A stretch of 64,000 nucleotides of DNA from Blastocatellia bacterium (GTDB lineage: Bacteria > Acidobacteriota > Blastocatellia > Pyrinomonadales > Pyrinomonadaceae). Location: positions 1 to 64,000 of the forward strand of contig PMSM01000005.1 of NCBI GenBank assembly GCA_003168335.1. Reading direction: 5' to 3'. The notes under the pieces were generated by a model that saw nothing but the letters and a program-made list of their open reading frames with translations, did not search any database and had not been told where the DNA came from. Numbering within the stretch: the first letter of the stretch is position 1; each line of letters starts with the position of its first letter. Position numbers and translations under genes: made by a program. Below, in pieces: positions 6,953 to 62,816 of the stretch.

Positions 6953-7158
6953 GACACCGCGCTCATCTTCTCCCATAATAATCACGCACCCCGAGAAAAC
7001 AGTTGGCAGTAAGCAGTAAGCAGTAGGCAGGAGCCTACGCGTGCACGATTCATTTGCTAAGGAGGCCGAGACGATGCTGATCAGAGATGTCATTCGTGAT
7101 CGTGAGCCTTACTCGATGAAGGCCACGGCGTCCGTGATGGAGGCGGCCGAGTTTATGG
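6953..7158 (+). repeat. Direct repeat copy 1: promoter and 5' end of the CBS gene
   Basis: This 206-bp stretch nearly matches 7991-8195. It contains a decayed copy of the promoter (CATAAT in place of TATAAT), the three 7-bp GCAGTAA units, the perfect ribosome site TAAGGAGG and the first 28 codons of the CBS gene. Homology stops abruptly at 7158, after which the sequence enters the toxin-antitoxin unit. It starts 32 bases after the restriction enzyme stop codon. Confidence 0.9.
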
Positions 7159-7502: not shown

Positions 7503-8057
7503 TTGTTGTCTCGAACTCAACTCCCCTAATAACCTTGGCAAAGGTTGGATACTTCGACCTGCTTCAAAAGCTCTTCACCGAAATTACTATTTCGCAGGAA
7601 GTCTGGGATGAAGTAGTAGTGAGTGGCGCAGGTCTGGCTGGGTCGAGTGAGACTTCACAAGCCGGCTGGATCAAAGTTAGCTCGGTTGCGGATTCGTCTT
7701 TGGTCGGCGAATGGCGCAACGCTCACAATCTCGGCGCCGGCGAACTGTCGACGATTCTGCTGGCGAAAGAGTTAACCGCGCAGACTAGCCGTGACCCTTG
7801 GACTGGCTGTAAGCGGAACGATCGCGGTGCTGGAAGGCGGTTATCGAGAGAATTACTTCAGCGATCTGCGCACAGTCTATCGGCAGTTACTCGCGGCAAA
7901 CATCTGGATCGATCAGAAGAAGCTTAATCAAAGTCTTGAGGCGAATGCCATTCAACAGGTCGATGCCACTGATTTTTCAGTCTTTCACCTGACACCGCGC
8001 TCAACTTCTCCTATAATACCCACGTACCCCGAGAAAACAGTTGGCAGTAAGCAGTGA
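7499..8057 (+). pseudogene. DUF3368 PIN-like toxin, broken by internal deletion and frameshift
   Basis: GTG 7499 overlaps the antitoxin stop. The first ~95 residues match DUF3368: VVSNSTPLITLAKVGYFDLLQKLF, then the GELSTILLAKEL helix. After about 7780 the homologous reading moves to another frame (LAVTLGLAVSGTIAVLEGGYRENYF), and the segment that normally lies between (hydrophobic strand plus L-D-D/E and an Arg pair) is missing. So roughly ten codons were lost by a deletion that is not a multiple of three, removing part of the PIN-like acidic site. In the second frame the reading runs past the expected end into the second direct repeat and stops at 8057. An active toxin is very unlikely. Confidence 0.75.
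7989..8017 (+). promoter_or_regulatory. Sigma-70 type promoter of the CBS gene
   Basis: CTGACA (7989-7994), 17-base spacer, TATAAT (8012-8017), about 93 bases before the CBS start. This is close to consensus. The duplicated copy at 6951-6979 has GAGACA and CATAAT, so it is weaker. Confidence 0.7.
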
Positions 8058-8195
8058 GCAGTAGGCAGGAGCCTACGCGTGCACGATTCATTTGCTAAGG
8101 AGGCGCGGCGATGCTGATCAGAGATGTCATTCGTGATCGTGAGCCTTACTCGATGAAGGCCACGGCGTCCGTGATGGAGGCGGCCGAGTTCATGG
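7991..8195 (+). repeat. Direct repeat copy 2: intact CBS promoter and gene start
   Basis: This 205-bp partner of 6953-7158 continues without interruption into the intact CBS gene, so it is the original locus end. Between the copies lie about 830 bases holding only the toxin-antitoxin pair. The two copies differ at about ten positions, concentrated upstream of the ATG; the shared coding part differs by one base. Confidence 0.9.
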
Positions 8196-9862: not shown

Positions 9863-9950
9863 GGCGAGGCGTAGCCTCGCCAATCAAGAAATGGCAACGC
9901 GCCGGAAAGGCGGAGCCTTTCCGCACATCAGGCGGCATAGCCGCGTACGC
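9863..9950. repeat. Cluster of short palindromes
   Basis: GGCGAGGC-GTA-GCCTCGCC (9863-9881) and GGAAAGGC-GGA-GCCTTTCC (9904-9922), then CCGCACATCAGGCGGC. The same units recur at 50133-50292 around the acyltransferase start, so this is a dispersed palindromic repeat. It fills the gap between two genes whose stop codons face each other and may also help terminate both. Confidence 0.7.
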
Positions 9951-14244: not shown

Positions 14245-14386
14245 CGAGCGCTGAAGGCGCGTAATGTCCGCCTGGATCATTTTCGTCGAGGTCGATTTCG
14301 CCCCTTCAGGGCTCAACCAATTCATGGCGACCTTTCCAGGGGCGTTGCCCCTGGCTATTACATTTCACGCCTTCAGCGTGAAGAGG
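14245..14386 (+). repeat. Dispersed ~140-bp palindrome-rich element, copy 1
   Basis: It contains GCGCTGAAGGCGC, then TTTCGCCCCTTCAGGGCTC, CCAGGGGCGTTGCCCCTGG, CTATTACATTTCACGCC and TTCAGCGTGAAG. The same order of blocks recurs in reverse at 31320-31460, and its last third recurs at 32949-32990. It has no coding capacity. It behaves like a small non-autonomous mobile or REP-type element. Confidence 0.75.
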
Positions 14387-32948: not shown

Positions 32949-32990
32949 CGGGGCGTTGCCCCGGGCTATTACATTTCACGCCTTCAGCGC
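32949..32990 (+). repeat. Partial copy 3 of the 140-bp element
   Basis: CGGGGCGTTGCCCCGGGCTA and TTACATTTCACGCCTTCAGC match the right end of the copies at 14245 and 31320. The left part is missing. Confidence 0.65.
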
Positions 32991-38217: not shown

Positions 38218-38274
38218 GTGGCACAGACTTTAGTCTGTGGTCTACGGACAATCACAGACTGAAGTCTGTGCCAC
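38218..38274. repeat. Paired-hairpin element next to ubiE
   Basis: Left hairpin CACAGACTTTAGTCTGTG, 12-base-class spacer, right hairpin CACAGACTGAAGTCTGTG, with outer GTGG/CCAC. The 57-bp unit ends 2 bases before the ubiE stop codon (38277). Copies at 49110 (inside metH) and 61068. Similar designs with other arms occur at 51197-51270. Confidence 0.9.
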
Positions 38275-38276
38275 TA

Positions 38277-38996
38277 CTACGCCCGCCGGCCGGTGTGCAA
38301 TGCTGCTACACCACCCGTCAAATTCTGAAAAGTCACCTCGGCAAAACCGGCCGCGCTCATCATCGCCGCGAGCGTTTCCTGATCGGGAAACCGAGACACC
38401 GAATCAGGCAGATACTCGTAAGCACTGCGCGACCCGCTGATCATTCCCCCGATTCGCGGCAACAAGCGCGTGCAATAGACGGCCGCCAGCGAACGAAGGC
38501 CCGGCGCGACGGGCTTCGAAAATTCTAAAATTGCTGCCCATCCGTTGGGCTTCAAAACTCGCCGCAGTTCAGTCAAACCATGCTCGACGTTGGAAAGATT
38601 CCGCAAGCCAAAGCCGATCGTGACTGCATCAAACGCACCCGCGCCAAAAGGAAGGTGCAACGCGTCCCCCTCTACAAACGAAAGCCGCGGCTGCTTTTGC
38701 GCCGCACGTGTAAGCATGGGCCGGCAAAAATCAACGCCGGTAACTCGCACCCCCATGTTTTCAAACAACGCAATACTCAAGTCGCCGGTGCCGCAGGCGA
38801 CGTCCAGAACCTGCGCCTCGGGCGACAGCAGCGGTCGTAGCTTTTCAACTACCTTCCGGCGCCACCGTCTATCGATATTCACCGACAGCAGGTGATTCAG
38901 CAGATCGTATCGCGGCGAAATTCGCGCGAACATGTCACGCACGCGCCGAGCGTGGTCCTCTGCTGAATTCTTCTCGACGGGATCAGTTAAGCCCAT
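38277..38996 (-). CDS. ubiE: Demethylmenaquinone/ubiquinone methyltransferase (UbiE/MenG)
   Basis: 239 residues. Signature segments are VRDMFARISPRYDLLNHLLSVNIDRRWRRKVV at the N-terminus (UbiE pattern 1), SAM motif I VLDVACGTGDLSIAL, GVDFCRPMLTRAA, FVEGDALHLPFGAGAFDAVTIGFGLRNLSN (UbiE pattern 2), LRRVLKPNGWAAILEFSKP, and the C-terminal AYEYLPDSVSRFPDQETLAAMM. The enzyme methylates demethylmenaquinone (menG) or the ubiquinone precursor. Acidobacteria use menaquinone, so the MenG activity is the likely one. The gene is alone on the minus strand; its stop codon nearly touches a repeat. Confidence 0.92.
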   Translation of the reverse strand: MGLTDPVEKNSAEDHARRVRDMFARISPRYDLLNHLLSVNIDRRWRRKVVEKLRPLLSPEAQVLDVACGTGDLSIALFENMGVRVTGVDFCRPMLTRAAQKQPRLSFVEGDALHLPFGAGAFDAVTIGFGLRNLSNVEHGLTELRRVLKPNGWAAILEFSKPVAPGLRSLAAVYCTRLLPRIGGMISGSRSAYEYLPDSVSRFPDQETLAAMMSAAGFAEVTFQNLTGGVAALHTGRRA

Positions 38997-46565: not shown

Positions 46566-49500
46566 ATGAGCAGTTTTATCGACACATTAAGAGAACGCAT
46601 CGTCGTCTTTGACGGCGCAATGGGTACCAATCTGCAGGTGCAGAACCTGACGCTGGAGGACTTTGGCGGTCTGCTGTTCGAAGGCTGTAACGAGAACCTG
46701 CTGGTCACTCGTCCCGACGCTGTTGAGAAAGTACATGCTGCATTTTTAGACGTCGGCTGCGACGTGATCGAGACCAATTCGTTTAATGGCACTCCCGTTG
46801 ACTTCGCTGAGTACGGCATCGGCGACCAGGCTTACGACATGAATGTGAGGGCCGCGCGCCTGGCTAAACGGGTGGCTTCGGACTATATCACCAAAGACAG
46901 ACCGCGTTGGGTCGCCGGTTCGATGGGGCCGGGACGCAAGCTACCGACGCTGGGCCACATCAGCTTCCTCGATCTAAAGGCGGCGTACGCTGAACAGGTG
47001 CGCGGGCTCCTCGATGGAGGAGTTGATTTGCTGATCGTGGAAACGTGTCAGGACCTGTTGCAGACAAAGGCCGCGCTGGCCGCAATCTTTGAAAACTTCG
47101 GTAAGCGTCGCCGGCGCGTGCCCGTGATCGCGCAGGTGACCATTGAAGTGTTCGGGACGATGCTCAACGGCACCGAGATTGGCGCCGCGCTAACCGCCCT
47201 GGCGCCTTTCCCGATTGACGTGATTGGCATGAACTGCGGCACCGGGCCGCGCCACATGAGTGAGAGCATCCGTTACCTTTGCGAGAACGCTCCGCTGCCG
47301 GTGTCGGTTCTGCCGAACGCGGGTTTGCCTTCGGTTAAGGAAGGCAAGATGCACTATGACGAGACTCCCGAAACTTTTACTGCGCAGATCGTTCACTTTG
47401 TCAGTGACTTTGGCGTCAACATCGTCGGTGGCTGCTGTGGCACTACACCCGCGCACTTGAAGTTGGTCGTCGAGGCGATGCAGCGCCTGACGCCAAAGCC
47501 GCGCCACGCCAAGCTCGTCCCGGCAGCGTCGTCAATCTACTTTCAGCAACCTTACGTGCAGGACGCGTCGTTCCTGATTGTTGGCGAGCGCGTCAACGCC
47601 AGTGGATCAAAGAAAATGCGCGACCTCCTCAACGCCGAAGATTGGGACGGGCTGGTCTCTCTGGCGAAAGAGCAGGAGCGCGAAGGCGCGCACATTCTCG
47701 ACGTGAATGTTGACTTTGTGGGGCGGAATGGCGAAGCCGACATGCATGAGCTGGCGGCGCGCCTGGTCACCAGCATCAAGCTGCCGCTGATGTTCGATTC
47801 CACTGAGTGGGAAAAGATGGAAGCCGGCCTGCAACACGCGGGCGGCAAGAGCATCCTCAATTCGACCAACTATGAAGACGGCGAGCCGCGCTTTGCGAAA
47901 GTGATTGACCTGGCCAAACGTTACGGCGCCAGTGTGGTCATCGGCACAATCGACGAAGAAGGAATGGCGCGCACCGCGGACGGGAAGCTGAAGATCGCGA
48001 AACGCGCGTACGACCAGGCCACTGGCGAGTTAGGCCTGCCGGCGTCTGACATTTTCTTTGATTCCCTGGCGCTGCCGATCTCGACGGGCATTGAAGAGGA
48101 CCGGCGTAACGCACTCGAGACCATCGCAGGCATCAGGCGCATCAAGGCCGAGTTGCCGGGCTCTTTCACTATTCTCGGCGTGTCGAATATCTCGTTCGGC
48201 CTGAACCCGGCCTCGCGGGTGGTGCTCAACTCTGTCTTCCTTCATGACGCAGTCGAAGCCGGCCTCGATGCGGCCATCGTGAACGCCAGCAAGATCGAGC
48301 CGTTGAATCGCATCGGTGAACAGGAGCTGAAAGTTGCGCGCGATTTGATCTATGACCGGCGCCGATTTGAAGGCGACGTCTGCACCTACGATCCCTTGAT
48401 CGTATTCACCACGCTCTTCGAGAACGTCAAAGCAAAGAGCGCAAAGAAAGCCAGCAAAGGCGAGACGGTCGAAGAGCGTTTGAAGAATCACATTATCGAC
48501 GGCGAAAAGATCGGCCTCGAAGACGAACTAAAGACCGCCCTGGAAAAATATCCGGCGCTCGACATCATCAATAACATTCTGCTCGATGGCATGAAGGTGG
48601 TCGGCGATCTGTTTGGCAGCGGACAGATGCAGCTTCCTTTCGTGTTGCAGTCGGCTGAGGCGATGAAGGCCGCCGTGCGTTTCCTGGAACCGTTCATGGA
48701 AAAGAAAGGCGGCGCGACCGCCAAAGGCACGATGGTCCTGGCAACCGTCAAGGGTGACGTGCACGACATTGGCAAGAACCTGGTCGATATTATTCTGACG
48801 AACAACGGCTATCGCGTGATTAATCTCGGCATCAAGCAAACGATTGACACGATTCTGAATGCTTACCAGGAACACAAAGCCGACGCCATCGGCATGAGCG
48901 GCTTGCTGGTAAAGTCCACGCTGATCATGAAAGAGAATCTGGAAGTCATGAACGAGCGGGGCCTTGGTGTCCCGGTCGTTTTGGGCGGAGCAGCGTTGAC
49001 GCGGCGCTATGTCGAGGAAGATTTGAAGTCACTTTATAAAGGCACGCTCTTCTATGCCCGCGACGCGTTCGCCGGCCTGCACACGATGGACAAGCTGATG
49101 TCGGGTGAGGTGGCACCGACTTTAGTCGGTGAAGGCGACACGGATCACAGACTGAAGTCTGTGCCACAAGATGCCGAGGATCTTGTCGGTGAGGACGCAA
49201 AGCTTGGCTTGCGCAAACCTGCGCAGCCTCGCGGGGTAAAAAAAGTTTCCGGCGATACTACCCATACTGTACGTTCGGACGTGCGCACGGATGTACCGAC
49301 TCCGCAGCCGCCGTTTCTTGGCTCGCGCGTGGTTCAAGACATCCCGATCGAAAACGTTTTCGACTACGTCAATGAAACCGCGTTGTTCAAAGGTCAATGG
49401 CAGTTCAAGCAGGGAAGGACCTCAGCCGAAGAATACCAGGCGCTGGTGGCGGGAAAAGTTCGGCCCGTGTATGAAGAACTGAAAGAGCGCTGCGAGCGCG

Positions 49501-50093
49501 ACGGGCTACTCGTGCCGCGGGTGGTCTACGGATATTTTCCAGCGCAATCAGCCGGCAACGATTTGATCGTCTACGACACTGATGCCACGACTGAGCGCGA
49601 GCGTTTCACTTTTCCGCGGCAACCGGCGGGAAAACGTCTTTGCCTGGCTGATTACTTCGCGTCAGTCGATTCCGGCCACATGGATGTGGTCGCGTTTGAC
49701 CTGGTGACAGTAGGCCGTCGCGCGAGCGAATATTCGCAAGAGCTTTTCAAGCGAGACAGTTATGCCGATTATCTCTACTTTCACGGCCTCAGCGTCGAAA
49801 GCGCCGAAGCGCTGGCCGAGTATTGGCACAAACACATTCGTCAGGAGCTGGGCATTGCTGACCGGGACGCCAGGAATCTCAATGAGCTATTTCGTCAGGG
49901 TTATCAGGGTTCGCGGTTCGGCTTTGGCTATCCCGCTTGTCCGAACCTCGAAGACCAGGCCAAGCTGTTTGCACTGCTCGATCCATCGCGCATCGACGTT
50001 GAACTGACCGAAGAATTCCAGCTCGAGCCCGAGCAATCAACTTCGGCAATCGTCATCCATCATCCGGAAGCCAGATACTTCTCGGTTGAATGA
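46566..50093 (+). CDS. metH: Cobalamin-dependent methionine synthase
   Basis: 1175 residues with all four modules. The homocysteine-binding barrel is at about 1-320, with zinc ligands Cys224 (GMNCGTGP) and Cys290-291 (GGCCGTTP). The pterin-binding barrel is at about 340-620 (FLIVGERVNASGSKKM). The B12 domain follows, with axial His733 in KGDVHDIGKN. The SAM-binding reactivation domain is at about 900-1175 (VVYGYFPAQSAGND ... RFGFGYPACPNLEDQ). It transfers the methyl group from methyltetrahydrofolate to homocysteine via methylcobalamin. Odd: residues ~849-868, between the B12 and reactivation domains, are encoded by a translated copy of a paired-hairpin repeat (49110-49167), and the linker there is longer than I would expect. 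No riboswitch precedes it. Confidence 0.95.
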   Translation: MSSFIDTLRERIVVFDGAMGTNLQVQNLTLEDFGGLLFEGCNENLLVTRPDAVEKVHAAFLDVGCDVIETNSFNGTPVDFAEYGIGDQAYDMNVRAARLAKRVASDYITKDRPRWVAGSMGPGRKLPTLGHISFLDLKAAYAEQVRGLLDGGVDLLIVETCQDLLQTKAALAAIFENFGKRRRRVPVIAQVTIEVFGTMLNGTEIGAALTALAPFPIDVIGMNCGTGPRHMSESIRYLCENAPLPVSVLPNAGLPSVKEGKMHYDETPETFTAQIVHFVSDFGVNIVGGCCGTTPAHLKLVVEAMQRLTPKPRHAKLVPAASSIYFQQPYVQDASFLIVGERVNASGSKKMRDLLNAEDWDGLVSLAKEQEREGAHILDVNVDFVGRNGEADMHELAARLVTSIKLPLMFDSTEWEKMEAGLQHAGGKSILNSTNYEDGEPRFAKVIDLAKRYGASVVIGTIDEEGMARTADGKLKIAKRAYDQATGELGLPASDIFFDSLALPISTGIEEDRRNALETIAGIRRIKAELPGSFTILGVSNISFGLNPASRVVLNSVFLHDAVEAGLDAAIVNASKIEPLNRIGEQELKVARDLIYDRRRFEGDVCTYDPLIVFTTLFENVKAKSAKKASKGETVEERLKNHIIDGEKIGLEDELKTALEKYPALDIINNILLDGMKVVGDLFGSGQMQLPFVLQSAEAMKAAVRFLEPFMEKKGGATAKGTMVLATVKGDVHDIGKNLVDIILTNNGYRVINLGIKQTIDTILNAYQEHKADAIGMSGLLVKSTLIMKENLEVMNERGLGVPVVLGGAALTRRYVEEDLKSLYKGTLFYARDAFAGLHTMDKLMSGEVAPTLVGEGDTDHRLKSVPQDAEDLVGEDAKLGLRKPAQPRGVKKVSGDTTHTVRSDVRTDVPTPQPPFLGSRVVQDIPIENVFDYVNETALFKGQWQFKQGRTSAEEYQALVAGKVRPVYEELKERCERDGLLVPRVVYGYFPAQSAGNDLIVYDTDATTERERFTFPRQPAGKRLCLADYFASVDSGHMDVVAFDLVTVGRRASEYSQELFKRDSYADYLYFHGLSVESAEALAEYWHKHIRQELGIADRDARNLNELFRQGYQGSRFGFGYPACPNLEDQAKLFALLDPSRIDVELTEEFQLEPEQSTSAIVIHHPEARYFSVE
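49110..49167 (+). repeat. Paired-hairpin element translated within metH
   Basis: Left hairpin CACCGACTTTAGTCGGTG, right hairpin CACAGACTGAAGTCTGTG, outer GTGG/CCAC, in the same design as 38218-38274. It lies in frame with no stop and codes for a segment around PTLVGEGDTDHRLKSVPQ. The left arm carries paired changes relative to the other copies (CACCG...CGGTG instead of CACAG...CTGTG). Confidence 0.85.
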
Positions 50094-50132: not shown

Positions 50133-50292
50133 CTGCCGCCTGATGTGCGGAAAGGCTTGGCCTTTCCGTATTGGCTTAGTTCCTAATTCGGCGAGGCTAC
50201 GCCTCGCGTGATGAGGCGCAGCCTCTTGCAAGATTTAAGAGAAACACCTGCCGGAAAGCCAAAGGCTTTCCGCACATCAGACGGCGAAGCCG
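50133..50292. repeat. Four-hairpin palindrome cluster at the acyltransferase start
   Basis: The outer pair GCCTGATGTGCGGAAAG / CTTTCCGCACATCAG flanks hairpins GGCGAGGC-TAC-GCCTCGC and GAGGC-GCA-GCCTC. The units match the cluster at 9863-9950. The start of the next gene lies inside it. Confidence 0.75.
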
Positions 50293-51179
50293 GTCGACGG
50301 CCACTAGCTGCGTCCGCCGACAGCCAGCCGGCGCCTCTCGAACCATCGCTCGAAGAACTCGCCGTCCTCTCTCCCCTCGAACGCTTCGCCTTCCGCGTCA
50401 CGCATCGCATGAATCAGGGGCGCTGGAAGCGCTTCTGGACCTGGTGTCAGAGCGTATTTGGCGCCGGCTGGATCCATCTCTCGACTTACAACTTGATGCG
50501 CGTTTATGGCCTGGAGAATATTGAAGCCGTCGATCATGGCCGTCCGATTCTGCTGGTCGCTAATCACCGATCGTTTTTCGACTTGTTCACGGTCTCGGCC
50601 GTTTTGTTTTATCGCACGCGCTGGCGTAAACAACTTTTCTTTCCGGTACGCGGCCGGTTTTTCTATCAATCGCCGCTGGGCATGTTCGTCAATCTGATCA
50701 TGGGTTGGTGGTCGATGTACCCGCCGTTCTTCGCCGGCGGTGACAAGCCACTTCGCGGAAAGCGCGAGTTCGACAAGTATTCTTTTCGGCGCTTGTCGCA
50801 GATTTGCCACGAAGGCGCCGGCAACTTGATCGGCTTTCACCCCGAAGGCACGCGCAATAAGGGCCGCGATCCATACTCGTATCTGCGACCGCAACCGGGC
50901 GTCGGCAAGCTGATCAAAGCTGCGAATCCTCAGGTCATTCCCATTTTCATTGCCGGCTTGGGTAACAAATTACCCAGGCAGGTTTTGGGAAACTGGTTTG
51001 GCGGCGAATCGATCCGCATTCACTTTGGCAAACAGCTCGACTTGTCAGAGTTCATCGCCAGGAAGGATCATGTGCGTACGTATAAAGAAATTGGCGAGTT
51101 TGTAATGAGCAAGATTGCAGAGTTGGGTGAGGAAGATCGGAAAGTGATGGCTAATTATGGAGTGCGGCGGCAAGCGTAG
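50211..51179 (+). CDS. PlsC-type 1-acyl-glycerol-3-phosphate acyltransferase
   Basis: ATG 50211 gives 322 residues, but the start is uncertain because the first ~30 codons lie in palindromic repeats; a TTG at 50223 is an alternative. Residues ~45-90 lead into the acyltransferase domain: motif I NHRSFFD (HxxxxD) with preceding PILLVA, motif II around FFPVRGRFFYQSPLGMFVNLIMGWWSM, motif III FHPEGTRNKGRDPY, and motif IV VIPIFIAGLG. It would acylate lysophosphatidate or a related acceptor at the membrane. The last six codons (GVRRQA and stop) come from another repeat. It precedes a diacylglycerol kinase-like gene, which suggests phospholipid metabolism. Confidence 0.85.
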   Translation: MRRSLLQDLRETPAGKPKAFRTSDGEAGRRPLAASADSQPAPLEPSLEELAVLSPLERFAFRVTHRMNQGRWKRFWTWCQSVFGAGWIHLSTYNLMRVYGLENIEAVDHGRPILLVANHRSFFDLFTVSAVLFYRTRWRKQLFFPVRGRFFYQSPLGMFVNLIMGWWSMYPPFFAGGDKPLRGKREFDKYSFRRLSQICHEGAGNLIGFHPEGTRNKGRDPYSYLRPQPGVGKLIKAANPQVIPIFIAGLGNKLPRQVLGNWFGGESIRIHFGKQLDLSEFIARKDHVRTYKEIGEFVMSKIAELGEEDRKVMANYGVRRQA

Positions 51180-60571: not shown

Positions 60572-61060
60572 TCAGCGGGCGCTTTTTCCCCCGCGATGTC
60601 TTAGCAACTCAGCCACAGCCGTATTGTTTCTGTTGATGGCAGTGTCCAGGGCGGTGCCTTGTTCGCTAATGACATTGATGTCGGCGCCGCGCAGGAGAAG
60701 CTCCTTGATGACGTCGGCGTGTCCGCTGTACGCCGCCTCGATAAGAGGAGTGCTGCCCCAGTTTTCACGAGCGTTTACGTCCGCACCTTCGTCCAGTAAG
60801 TAACGAACTACGTCCAGTTTTCCTTCGCCGGCAGCCAGGAAGAGCGGCCTCCCGGAATTACCTCGCGCGTTGACGTTCGCGCCGGCAAAGTGAAGTAGCT
60901 GCATGCGACGGAGGTTTCCGTCAATCGTCGCCTGGGCAAAGGATCGCTGTCGCTGCGCCCTGACCCGCGGCAAGCTGTTCACCAGCGCCAGCGAGAAAAC
61001 GAGCGTGCTGGTAAAGGCGATCGCTGGGACGAAAATCGATTTTGCCGTGTCGCTATTCAT
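60572..61060 (-). CDS. Ankyrin repeat protein with signal anchor
   Basis: ATG 61060 gives 162 residues. A hydrophobic N-terminal helix (SIFVPAIAFTSTLVFSLALVNSLP) is followed by about three ankyrin repeats (SGRPLFLAAGEGKLDVVRYLLDEGADVNAREN and WGSTPLIEAAYSGHADVIKELLLRGADINV). Such repeats bind proteins. It is exported or membrane-held. It lies between the LarA-like gene and the giant ligase gene on the same strand, with only 33 bases before the ligase start, and so probably shares the transcript. Confidence 0.8.
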   Translation of the reverse strand: MNSDTAKSIFVPAIAFTSTLVFSLALVNSLPRVRAQRQRSFAQATIDGNLRRMQLLHFAGANVNARGNSGRPLFLAAGEGKLDVVRYLLDEGADVNARENWGSTPLIEAAYSGHADVIKELLLRGADINVISEQGTALDTAINRNNTAVAELLRHRGGKSAR

Positions 61061-61067
61061 AAACTCA

Positions 61068-61133
61068 GTGGCACAGACTTCAGTCTGTGATGACCCTGTA
61101 GAGAGAAGAATCACAGACTGAAGTCTGTGCCAC
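61068..61133. repeat. Paired-hairpin element between ankyrin and LarA-like genes
   Basis: GTGGCACAGACTTCAGTCTG and its inverted partner CAGACTGAAGTCTGTGCCAC, spaced by ~20 bases. The third full copy of the 38218-38274 type. It begins 7 bases before the ankyrin start codon and ends 4 bases before the LarA-like stop codon (61138). Confidence 0.9.
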
Positions 61134-61137
61134 TTTC

Positions 61138-62736
61138 TTATTCCATATCGGCGATGCCAATCATCGGCTGGTGCAGCATCGTAATTTCGGCCGAGCTGCC
61201 CATATAAGTTCGCGCCATCGCAATGGCTTCCGTGAGATTGTCCGCGCGCTCCCAGCCCAGCATGGCGGGAACATGGGCGTTCTCAGCGCCGGCAGCGATT
61301 ACCTTGCCGACATGCTGGCGTCCGTTCTCTCCCCAGTACCACATAAAAAATGGATGCGCGCCGTGATAGGCGTTGCCGCGCCGGTACATCTCGACATAGC
61401 TCGGGTTGTTTGCGAACTCGCGCTCGTACTTGTCTCGCAGATAGAAGGCGTCGCGTGATTCCGGCAATAGGCGATTGAAAAACTCTATGTAGCTGGGATG
61501 CATATTGTGATCGAACTGGTCATAGCAGGGGTGATGAATGATCATCACGCCGCCTTTCCTCAACAGGGGCTTATTACGATAAAAATTGAAGTGATAGCCC
61601 AGCCCCATCACTTGCACGAGCAAAGGATTCAAGATCGAATACACGTTGTAGGGCGAAATATCGGGAATGCCGGTAATCAGAATGTCGCACTGGCCCCGCA
61701 CGGGAATTGAATACTGCTGAAAGCCCTTCTCGATGATCTTCGCATGTACCGGTTCGGTCTTGCCGGCATAGCAGGCGGTCATCTCGTATTGCGCCGGCAT
61801 CGAGTGCAGCATTTTGCGACGCGCGGCGCGAGGCAGCTTGCCCATCGCGTAGCGCATGGCTTCAAACTTCATCCGATCAAACGCGCTGAAGTCGTCCTCG
61901 TTCTTGGTGAGGAAATCCATGTCGCCTTTGTACATGCGATTGTTGATGGCCGTCTCGATATGAAAAACGTTCAGATGCTCATCGACAATCTTGCCCAGGC
62001 GTCCGCACTTGTTGCTGAGCTCTGAGCGCGCCGGATCCATATAACTGTCGGAATCGCGAATTGTCTGTGGTTCGTGGTGCGCCCGCAGGGATTCGTAATC
62101 GCAAAGCCCGACGGCCACCGATTTGTGACCGCCATCCATCGGTACAAAATTGATGTTGGCGTAAATGAGCAGATCGCTTTCGGCTGCGCGGCGGTTGAGC
62201 GTCAACGGTTCCTTGTGGCGCGTCTCGCCAATCTTGATCAGGCCTTCCTTCCATTCAGCATCGTGGTTGTAATAACGATCGGGATAGTACCCATCAAAGA
62301 TCTTCTGGCCCACCATCCGTTTCATTTCCCAGGCCGTCATTTTGCGGTGCAGGGAATTGGCGATGATGATGTGGACATCGTCCACGCCGTTTCCGGCGAG
62401 CATGTCCAGCACTATCTCAAGCATGGTCTGGCGAATGTCCGGCGTGGCCATGGGCGGCAAAGGCAGACTGATGTCGTCGACCGCGATGGTGACTTTCATC
62501 CCCGGCTCAAGCTGAGCAAAGAGCGGATCGCAACCGAGCGGATGATTCAGCGCATAGCGAATCGCCGCTTCGCGATTTGGCAGGCCTTTGACCGGTGGAT
62601 TGGGATAAAGGACGCGCGTGCCGACCGGCAAATCCTCAAGAATAAAATCTTCTCCCGAAGGCATGATGCGCGGCGCGCTGTCGCTGTCGATGTACACGAT
62701 CGATTCGTGTGTTTTTCTTCTTAGTTGAAGTGCCAT
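61138..62736 (-). CDS. LarA-like (DUF2088) protein
   Basis: ATG 62736 gives 532 residues; about 16 codons further upstream are open but look non-coding. The fold of nickel-dependent lactate racemase LarA is suggested by the N-terminal domain: [27 protein letters not shown] (compare the DITRP segment), then [20 protein letters not shown] and [24 protein letters not shown], where a Lys and two His occur at the places of the cofactor-binding residues. The C-terminal half is long and differs from LarA, with [24 protein letters not shown]. LarA homologues catalyse racemisation or epimerisation of hydroxy acids with a nickel pincer cofactor. Its substrate and need for cofactor are unknown. It lies beside a HAD phosphatase and the giant ligase. 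Confidence 0.75.
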
Positions 62737-62744
62737 AGTCAGAA

Positions 62745-62816
62745 TCCGGTCACAGATAAACGCGGATGGCCACAGATAGACCAAAATACTTGTGTAAATC
62801 TGTGTTCATCGGTGGC
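62745..62816. repeat. Remnant of the CAGATT repeat
   Basis: CACAGATAAACGCGGATGGC, CACAGATAGACC and GTAAATCTGTGTTCATCGG fill the gap between the LarA-like and HAD genes. The last base abuts the HAD stop codon at 62817. Confidence 0.55.

Follow-up and report, generated by a model that had tools for sequence, protein, structure and literature searches.

The 2011 PLoS Genetics paper on REPINs is reportedly by Bertels and Rainey, and the 2013 BMC Genomics paper on intragenic REPs tagged with GTAG or CGTC is said to come from Di Nocera and colleagues. In the sections of the REPIN paper drawn on here, REPINs are inverted REP doublets that form one hairpin, are present in many copies and lie mostly outside genes, the commonest 16-mers overlapping genes in only 14 of 1,067 occurrences (PMC3116915). 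In the corresponding sections of the 2013 paper, GTAG REPs are mostly intergenic, and some lie wholly within ORFs, more than half of these as dimers or grouped; intragenic GTAG/GTGG REP dimers code for 20-30 residues, genes of DNA synthesis and repair are frequent hosts, flexible linkers or loops are suggested, most Opitutus terrae GTAG-20 elements carry GTGG tags, and in one case different REPs occupy about the same recB site (PMC3733652). GTGG motifs are also described with some RAYT genes in the excerpt used of PMC6006769. The classic translated palindromes are the Rickettsia palindromic elements (RPEs; Ogata et al. 2000, via the relevant parts of PMC2229807 and PMC3733652), which are 105-146 bp long, include the CGTC-tagged RPE-4 and RPE-6, and have had one protein product (Gmk) tested. 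Translated mobile palindromes are already known, and the family described below is a further member of that kind.

The DNA analysed here (the window) is a stretch of 64 kb at the start of contig 2 of genome G000, an assembly of 5.16 Mb in 14 contigs. A sequence-only reading of the window had pointed to a palindromic pair lying in frame inside metH, coding for about 20 residues without stops, at a site between the cobalamin and reactivation domains. Sequence and frame agree with the first part of this claim, and the site indeed falls in the gap of the structural alignment described below. The element (58 bp, GTGGCACCGACTTTAGTCGGTG-N14-CACAGACTGAAGTCTGTGCCAC) consists of two palindromes placed head to head, in the order GTGGCACCGACTTTAGTCGGTG AAGGCGACACGGAT CACAGACTGAAGTCTGTGCCAC, and spans 20 stop-free codons, residues 849-868 of the protein (Table 1). 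General repeat finding over 48600-49700 returned no repeat, and it was pattern searches that revealed the element. Each arm is a perfect palindrome with an 8-bp stem; base-paired to one another, the two arms give a single long hairpin (-18.7 kcal/mol, z -5.7 as DNA; -33.4 kcal/mol, z -6.2 as RNA), a fold equalled by 0 of 200 shuffles. The first metH arm has a C:G pair at one stem position where almost every copy of the family has A:T. Our main reading, to which we assign a probability of about 85%, is that a REPIN-like element inserted in the disordered linker of metH, is translated as a spacer of about 20 residues, and is tolerated.

Table 1 Features of the metH element, other copies of its family and related loci.
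Feature	Position	Strand	Basis or remark
metH, B12-dependent methionine synthase, 1175 aa, host of the element	46566..50093	+	ORF; phmmer against MetH chains 8ssc and 8g3h, E reported as 0
REPIN-like doublet, in frame, coding for VAPTLVGEGDTDHRLKSVPQ	49110..49167	+	sequence; genome pattern searches
First REP arm, GTGGCACCGACTTTAGTCGGTG, with C:G stem pair	49110..49131	+	exact form GTRGCACCGACTTYAGTCGGTG in 2 places among 119 family genomes
Spacer, AAGGCGACACGGAT	49132..49145	+	first 7 bases common to the boxB copy only, among the doublets listed
Second REP arm, reverse orientation, GTGGCACAGACTTCAGTCTGTG, commonest family form	49146..49167	-	genome pattern searches
Linker between the two domains (residues 846-899), with predicted disorder, hypervariable in the family	49101..49262	+	relatives' linkers; AlphaFold model
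Second copy, taken as extragenic; stop codon of ORF 38277-38996 (-) 2 bases away	38218..38274		pattern search
Third copy, taken as extragenic; stop codon of ORF 61138-62784 (-) 4 bases away	61068..61133		pattern search
Copy in boxB (L075)			in frame
Copy in AddA/RecB-like helicase gene (L076)			in frame
Copy in mutS2 (L079)			in frame
Copy in TIGR01976 cysteine-desulfurase-like gene (L085)			in frame
Copy in Lhr-like helicase gene (L085)			in frame
Copy in nagA (L093)			in frame
Copy in aroB (L079/L321), one decayed arm			in frame; two mismatches
Copy in 529-aa ORF (L088), counted as one unrecognised ORF			in frame; no NCBIfam or Pfam match
Repeat families B-F in the MutS2, NagA and desulfurase-like loops			L132, L134, L145, L152, L154, L174, L175

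Pattern searches showed that the arms recur throughout the genome. The palindrome CACAGACTNNAGTCTGTG has 81 exact occurrences in the 5.16 Mb and its reversed control none, GTGGCACNGACTNNAGTCNGTG is matched 55 + 58 times genome-wide when up to two mismatches are allowed, and CACAGACTGAAGTCTGTG with up to three mismatches has 11 matches in the window against 0.01 expected (both strands, on which a palindrome can count twice). Although single inverted repeats of 7-9 bp exist in other linkers, the genome-wide family and the zero control matches exclude for all practical purposes that the palindrome arose by chance in a GC-rich linker, and we give that explanation next to no credence. Grouping of matches from 48 fetched stretches and the window, around the matches listed (100 of 162 and 100 of 113), gave at least 64 clusters (3 in the window), made up of 46 forward-reverse doublets, 12 + 6 single arms and no reverse-forward pair; all 81 exact palindromes lie within the stretches examined and weaker copies lie elsewhere, so that 64 is a lower bound. 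The doublets are 52-157 bp long with spacers that vary, and among the matches listed copies stand on contigs 1, 2, 4, 6-10 and 12-14. The pattern of the cluster search contained GTGG, which biases the tag counts in the arm statistics, and the tags were recounted with a tag-free search: GTRG stands on exactly one side of 74 of the 81 exact palindromes and on neither side of 7, and CGTC was absent among the 14 four-base flanks of those seven. This anatomy, a GTRG-tagged doublet of REPs, is that of a REPIN, and on the evidence of the pattern matches the metH element belongs to a dispersed REPIN-like family (family A below).

Most clusters lie outside recognisable genes, and at least 9 of the 64 listed are intragenic, in frame in ORFs of at least 390 aa. 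In the window, the second copy adjoins an ORF that we take to be ubiE/menG-like, and the third extends over the GTG that is the earliest possible start of ORF 60572-61114 (-). Beyond G000, the repeat family was matched in 22 of 119 genomes of the bacterial family, including all seven of this genus, and G014, of another genus, holds 230 matches. By MetH similarity, the closest named records are for the most part Pyrinomonadaceae or Acidobacteria MAGs, which suggests Pyrinomonadaceae as the bacterial family.

The window also contains other repeats. A palindromic repeat, GCCGGAAAG...CTTTCCGCACATCAG, is found at 50250-50292 and 9901-9943 (84% alike); the former copy lies near the start of an acyltransferase-like ORF (50208-51179) and is open in the frame of that ORF. 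A 40-base repeat, GGGGCGTTGCCCC...CTTCAGCG, stands at 14339-14378 and 32950-32989 with 98% identity and is perhaps another dispersed family. A duplication of about 200 bases (6953-7158 and 7991-8195, 95-97% identity, about 1 kb apart) perhaps marks twin genes.

The MetH protein aligned to 8g3h in two blocks, residues 4-846 and 911-1175, with the element in the gap between them, and against 8ssc the first block extended loosely to residue 855; the names of the Cob and reactivation domains are those we take from established MetH knowledge. In an AlphaFold model built with 22 sequences (mean pLDDT 69.7, a modest value), residues 846-899 were coil with pLDDT below 50, at about 26 in residues 851-890, and other stretches, for example 713-743, also fell below 50. 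Over 69 distinct linkers the inter-domain stretch was hypervariable and 63-139 aa long (74 aa in G000, 74 in G001, 77 in G002, 92 in G003, 76 in G004, 73 in G005 and 69 in G034). The family-A doublet was present in the G000 linker, and the comparison with 68 further distinct MetH linkers did not show it in any of them. The linker of G034, which belongs to another genus, holds a decayed first arm, GTAGCACCGACTTCAGCCGCTG, at the same place and in the same frame as in G000; family B occurs in the metH linkers of G005 (one arm) and L290 (both orientations, 5-6 mismatches), and the linker DNA of G003 resembles, by eye, the second insert of the Lhr-like gene of G000. An empty metH site with near-identical flanks was not found among relatives, so that the insertion is not visible base by base. 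As far as the compared sequences tell, the element stands where relatives have other codons, in a linker without net lengthening relative to congeners.

The genome-wide copies and the disorder prediction thus support the sequence-only reading in part: a repeat of mobile type, present in dispersed copies, lies in a flexible linker. The expectation of that reading that the element would be missing in some relatives held, but the shorter linkers expected there did not appear, linkers that lack the element being in general no shorter; and the pattern that would have told against insertion, the same conserved segment without a palindrome in all relatives, did not occur. That the insertion was recent is likely from the intact arms but unproven, as G034 has a decayed arm at the same site.

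The very stable RNA hairpin and the intactness of both metH arms, in the first of which C:G for A:T means that pairing survived a two-sided change, would also suit a palindrome kept for an RNA or DNA function in metH, whether an mRNA hairpin that slows ribosomes between domains or a gyrase or processing site. We consider this improbable, since the doublet is absent from the other linkers compared, unrelated genes harbour similar hairpins, and arms outside genes are intact just as often (all 8 stem pairs kept in 74 of the 94 other arms and in 12 of the 16 coding arms).

A second question is raised by the mosaic similarity of metH itself. Residues 1-720 of G000 MetH are 91% identical to G034 and 77-78% to the congeners G003-G005, and the last 265 residues are 75% identical to G034 and 81-84% to the same congeners, the switch lying somewhere after residue 640. 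Windows of 60 residues from 801 and 841 are 82 and 59% identical to G034, against 75-76 and 45-56% for the three congeners. In a metH tree with the linker left out and four short sequences omitted (L022, L035, L038 and L258), G000 fell in a nine-member clade with G034 (support 0.79) because of its first 720 residues. MetH of G001, of the same genus, is 93% identical to that of G000 over residues 1-734 and 80% after, with an assembly gap between. With regard to the linker, similarity turns back towards G034 in the windows at 801 and 841, so that descent shared with G034, a second insertion and gene conversion would each fit the data.

Among 119 genomes, the CACCGACTTYAGTCGGTG arm with its tag is common to the metH and boxB copies only, and the two copies also have the first spacer bases, AAGGCGA, in common. 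From the shared C:G arm and these seven spacer bases, the metH or the boxB copy probably descends from the other, or both from a lost source. Together with the mosaic, the windows next to the linker that are nearer G034 than the three congeners compared, and the decayed first arm at the same site in G034, this could mean that the segment reached metH by recombination or gene conversion, from boxB or with a metH piece of a relative such as G034, without transposition. The copies in metH and boxB have unrelated flanks, however, and spacers of 14 and 8 bases, and the arm in G034 is single and decayed; we therefore hold such a transfer to be unlikely.

Under the preferred reading of insertion, a non-autonomous palindromic element of two GTGG-tagged REPs set head to head would have entered the hypervariable metH linker, in a frame that both arms leave open. 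Old linker codons would have been lost, and linker length would for that reason be about unchanged. The roughly 20 residues would be translated as a spacer and tolerated because the linker mainly tethers two domains; the metH insert would be near-neutral, and selection presumably removed copies that disrupted the reading frame or landed in folded cores. A Y1/RAYT transposase would have acted in trans, and mobilisation of the family as a whole may have proceeded in the same way. G000 has 14 Y1_Tnp matches, 11 of them over the cut-off, and one is a RAYT, the L048 protein, which matches NF047646 with a score of 93.8 (cut-off 80). The expectation of a RAYT gene flanked by the repeat was not borne out: around the 14 Y1-transposase loci of G000, searched to a distance of about 1.5 kb, there was no copy of the family, and in 12 genomes a doublet stood near 1 of 30 RAYT-type loci (L222 in G014, about 750 bp away), a count that copy density alone could give.

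The in-frame copies of G000 (Table 1) lie in recognisable genes in most cases. Profile scores against cut-offs were 705/499 bits for BoxB (TIGR03225), 743/400 for MutS2, 298/226 for NagA and 411/352 for the TIGR01976 protein; AroB was over the cut-offs of PF01761 and PF24621, and the AddA-like and Lhr-like helicases gave family matches below cut-off. Three of the nine hosts are of repair type (MutS2, AddA-like and Lhr-like). The family explains why the peptides VAQTSVC...HRLKSVP and GTDFSLC...TDLSLCH recur in unrelated proteins of G000. Several long ORFs around further copies appeared chance-like, and their copies were excluded as intragenic (L081, L069, L073, L055, an antisense ORF in L079 and the copy at 61068 in the window); Pfam matches are absent from the ORFs of L081 and L342. 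In a lumazine-synthase ORF of G005 (L327), the element lies ahead of the domain and probably upstream of the true start. The Lhr-like ORF in L085 contains, besides its family-A copy, a second in-frame palindromic repeat, PVATTTPRGLPARGPRSAPGSD, and a nearly identical peptide occurs in MutS2 of G005.

In the coding doublets, a first arm read as VAQTSVC is followed by HRLKSVP or QTEVCAT, and one read as GTDFSLC by TDLSLCH. In the GTDFSLC frame the usual second arm would give TGA or TAA, and all three copies found there have TTA. Of the 16 coding arms, 3 have the stop-removing loop base A, and none of the 94 other arms has it (Fisher p 0.0026); two of these three copies are 7 kb apart and perhaps not independent. 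A non-T base in the cysteine codon, which turns cysteine into glycine in metH and boxB, was found in 3 of the 16 coding arms and in 1 of the 94 others (p 0.009); since arms outside genes in G014 often have this base too, it may characterise a subfamily and need not be tuning. In these arm statistics L088 was counted as coding and the decayed arm of AroB was placed among the 94 others. The tag-to-tag length was a multiple of three in 0 of 8 coding doublets and 15 of 38 others; since coding lengths are never multiples of three, junction bases must have been gained or lost.

In all five genes compared, other species have repeats in the loop concerned, either of the same family or unrelated to it; the five were picked because G000 carries an insert there, so that five of five is not an unbiased rate. 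In BoxB, six congeners that are 88-89% identical have an uninterrupted site at which G000 has 15 extra residues; G014 has an insert of the same family in the same place (VARTSVG-GEHRLKSMP), and, G014 and G000 apart, no insert was found at the site in the other fetched loci that cover it. In MutS2, NagA and the desulfurase-like protein, the G000 insert contrasts with shorter loops of other genera. The MutS2 loop carries family A in G000 and a single A arm in G014. In G005 it has, judged by eye, the 12 leading bases of an A arm, together with family B (AGTACCGGGAGCGGTAGCGACCGGGT, exact); G001 has a B pair, G004 and G006 have B-like arms (5 mismatches) and G003 has a third repeat pair, E. In the loci of other genera, G014 excepted, the loop is short (L137-L144, L146-L150). 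The NagA loop has repeat pair D in G004 and F in G005, and the desulfurase-like loop has a decayed A copy in G004 (3 mismatches, by eye), B in G005 and C in G001. In GcvPB, family A follows LPVPRV in both G006 and G014, which represent two genera (L326, L334), where GcvP domains were matched, and an MFS transporter of G014 contains one family-A copy.

With up to four mismatches, 440 kb of G000 gave 8 matches for B, 2 for C, 7 for D, 3 for E and 5 for F, and reversed controls gave 0. By these matches, families B-F are also dispersed repeats; patterns C-F were derived from the inserts they describe, and their independent support is the G000 matches alone. Possibly, certain loops and linkers of conserved enzymes in these Pyrinomonadaceae are landing pads that unrelated families of mobile palindromes re-enter and overwrite, and the spacers of MetH, MutS2, NagA and others may be largely successive REP insertions tuned by removal of stops and change of cysteine codons; we put this forward tentatively, at somewhat less than even odds. 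If true, sequence turnover in such linkers would proceed by transposition, not by point mutation.

The family allows the conversion of mobile DNA into protein to be studied by comparison, in bacteria whose genomes measure 4-6 Mb. Relatives of the host enzymes have solved structures and the boxB congeners have uninterrupted sites, so that tolerance or use of translated palindromes is directly testable. In the literature searched, which took in neither bioRxiv nor most subscription journals, no description was found of this family, of the loop reuse or of the stop removal in these bacteria.

Set beside the systems described at the outset, as far as the cited sections cover them, the family shares with RPEs the presence of mobile palindromes in frame in conserved protein genes (here by comparison with relatives lacking the insert). 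Unlike RPEs, it has another sequence, belongs to another phylum and carries GTRG rather than CGTC tags, and its translation is predicted from DNA. With REPINs, as the consulted sections of PMC3116915 present them, it has in common inverted doublets that fold into one hairpin, dispersed and mostly extragenic copies and a RAYT in the genome; it differs in that no RAYT gene flanked by the family was found in G000 and that at least nine of the 64 listed clusters are intragenic and in frame. The closest likeness of the in-frame copies is to the REPs of PMC3733652, which in the sections used are likewise short palindromes, tagged GTAG/GTRG, in part inside ORFs and prominent in repair genes; those sections contain neither the stem CACAGACTTYAGTCTGTG nor this host lineage. 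Relative to the same sections, the recurrence of inserts in the same loop across several genes and genera and the stop-removing loop changes in coding copies set the present family apart, and this loop reuse and stop-removing change are its fresher parts.
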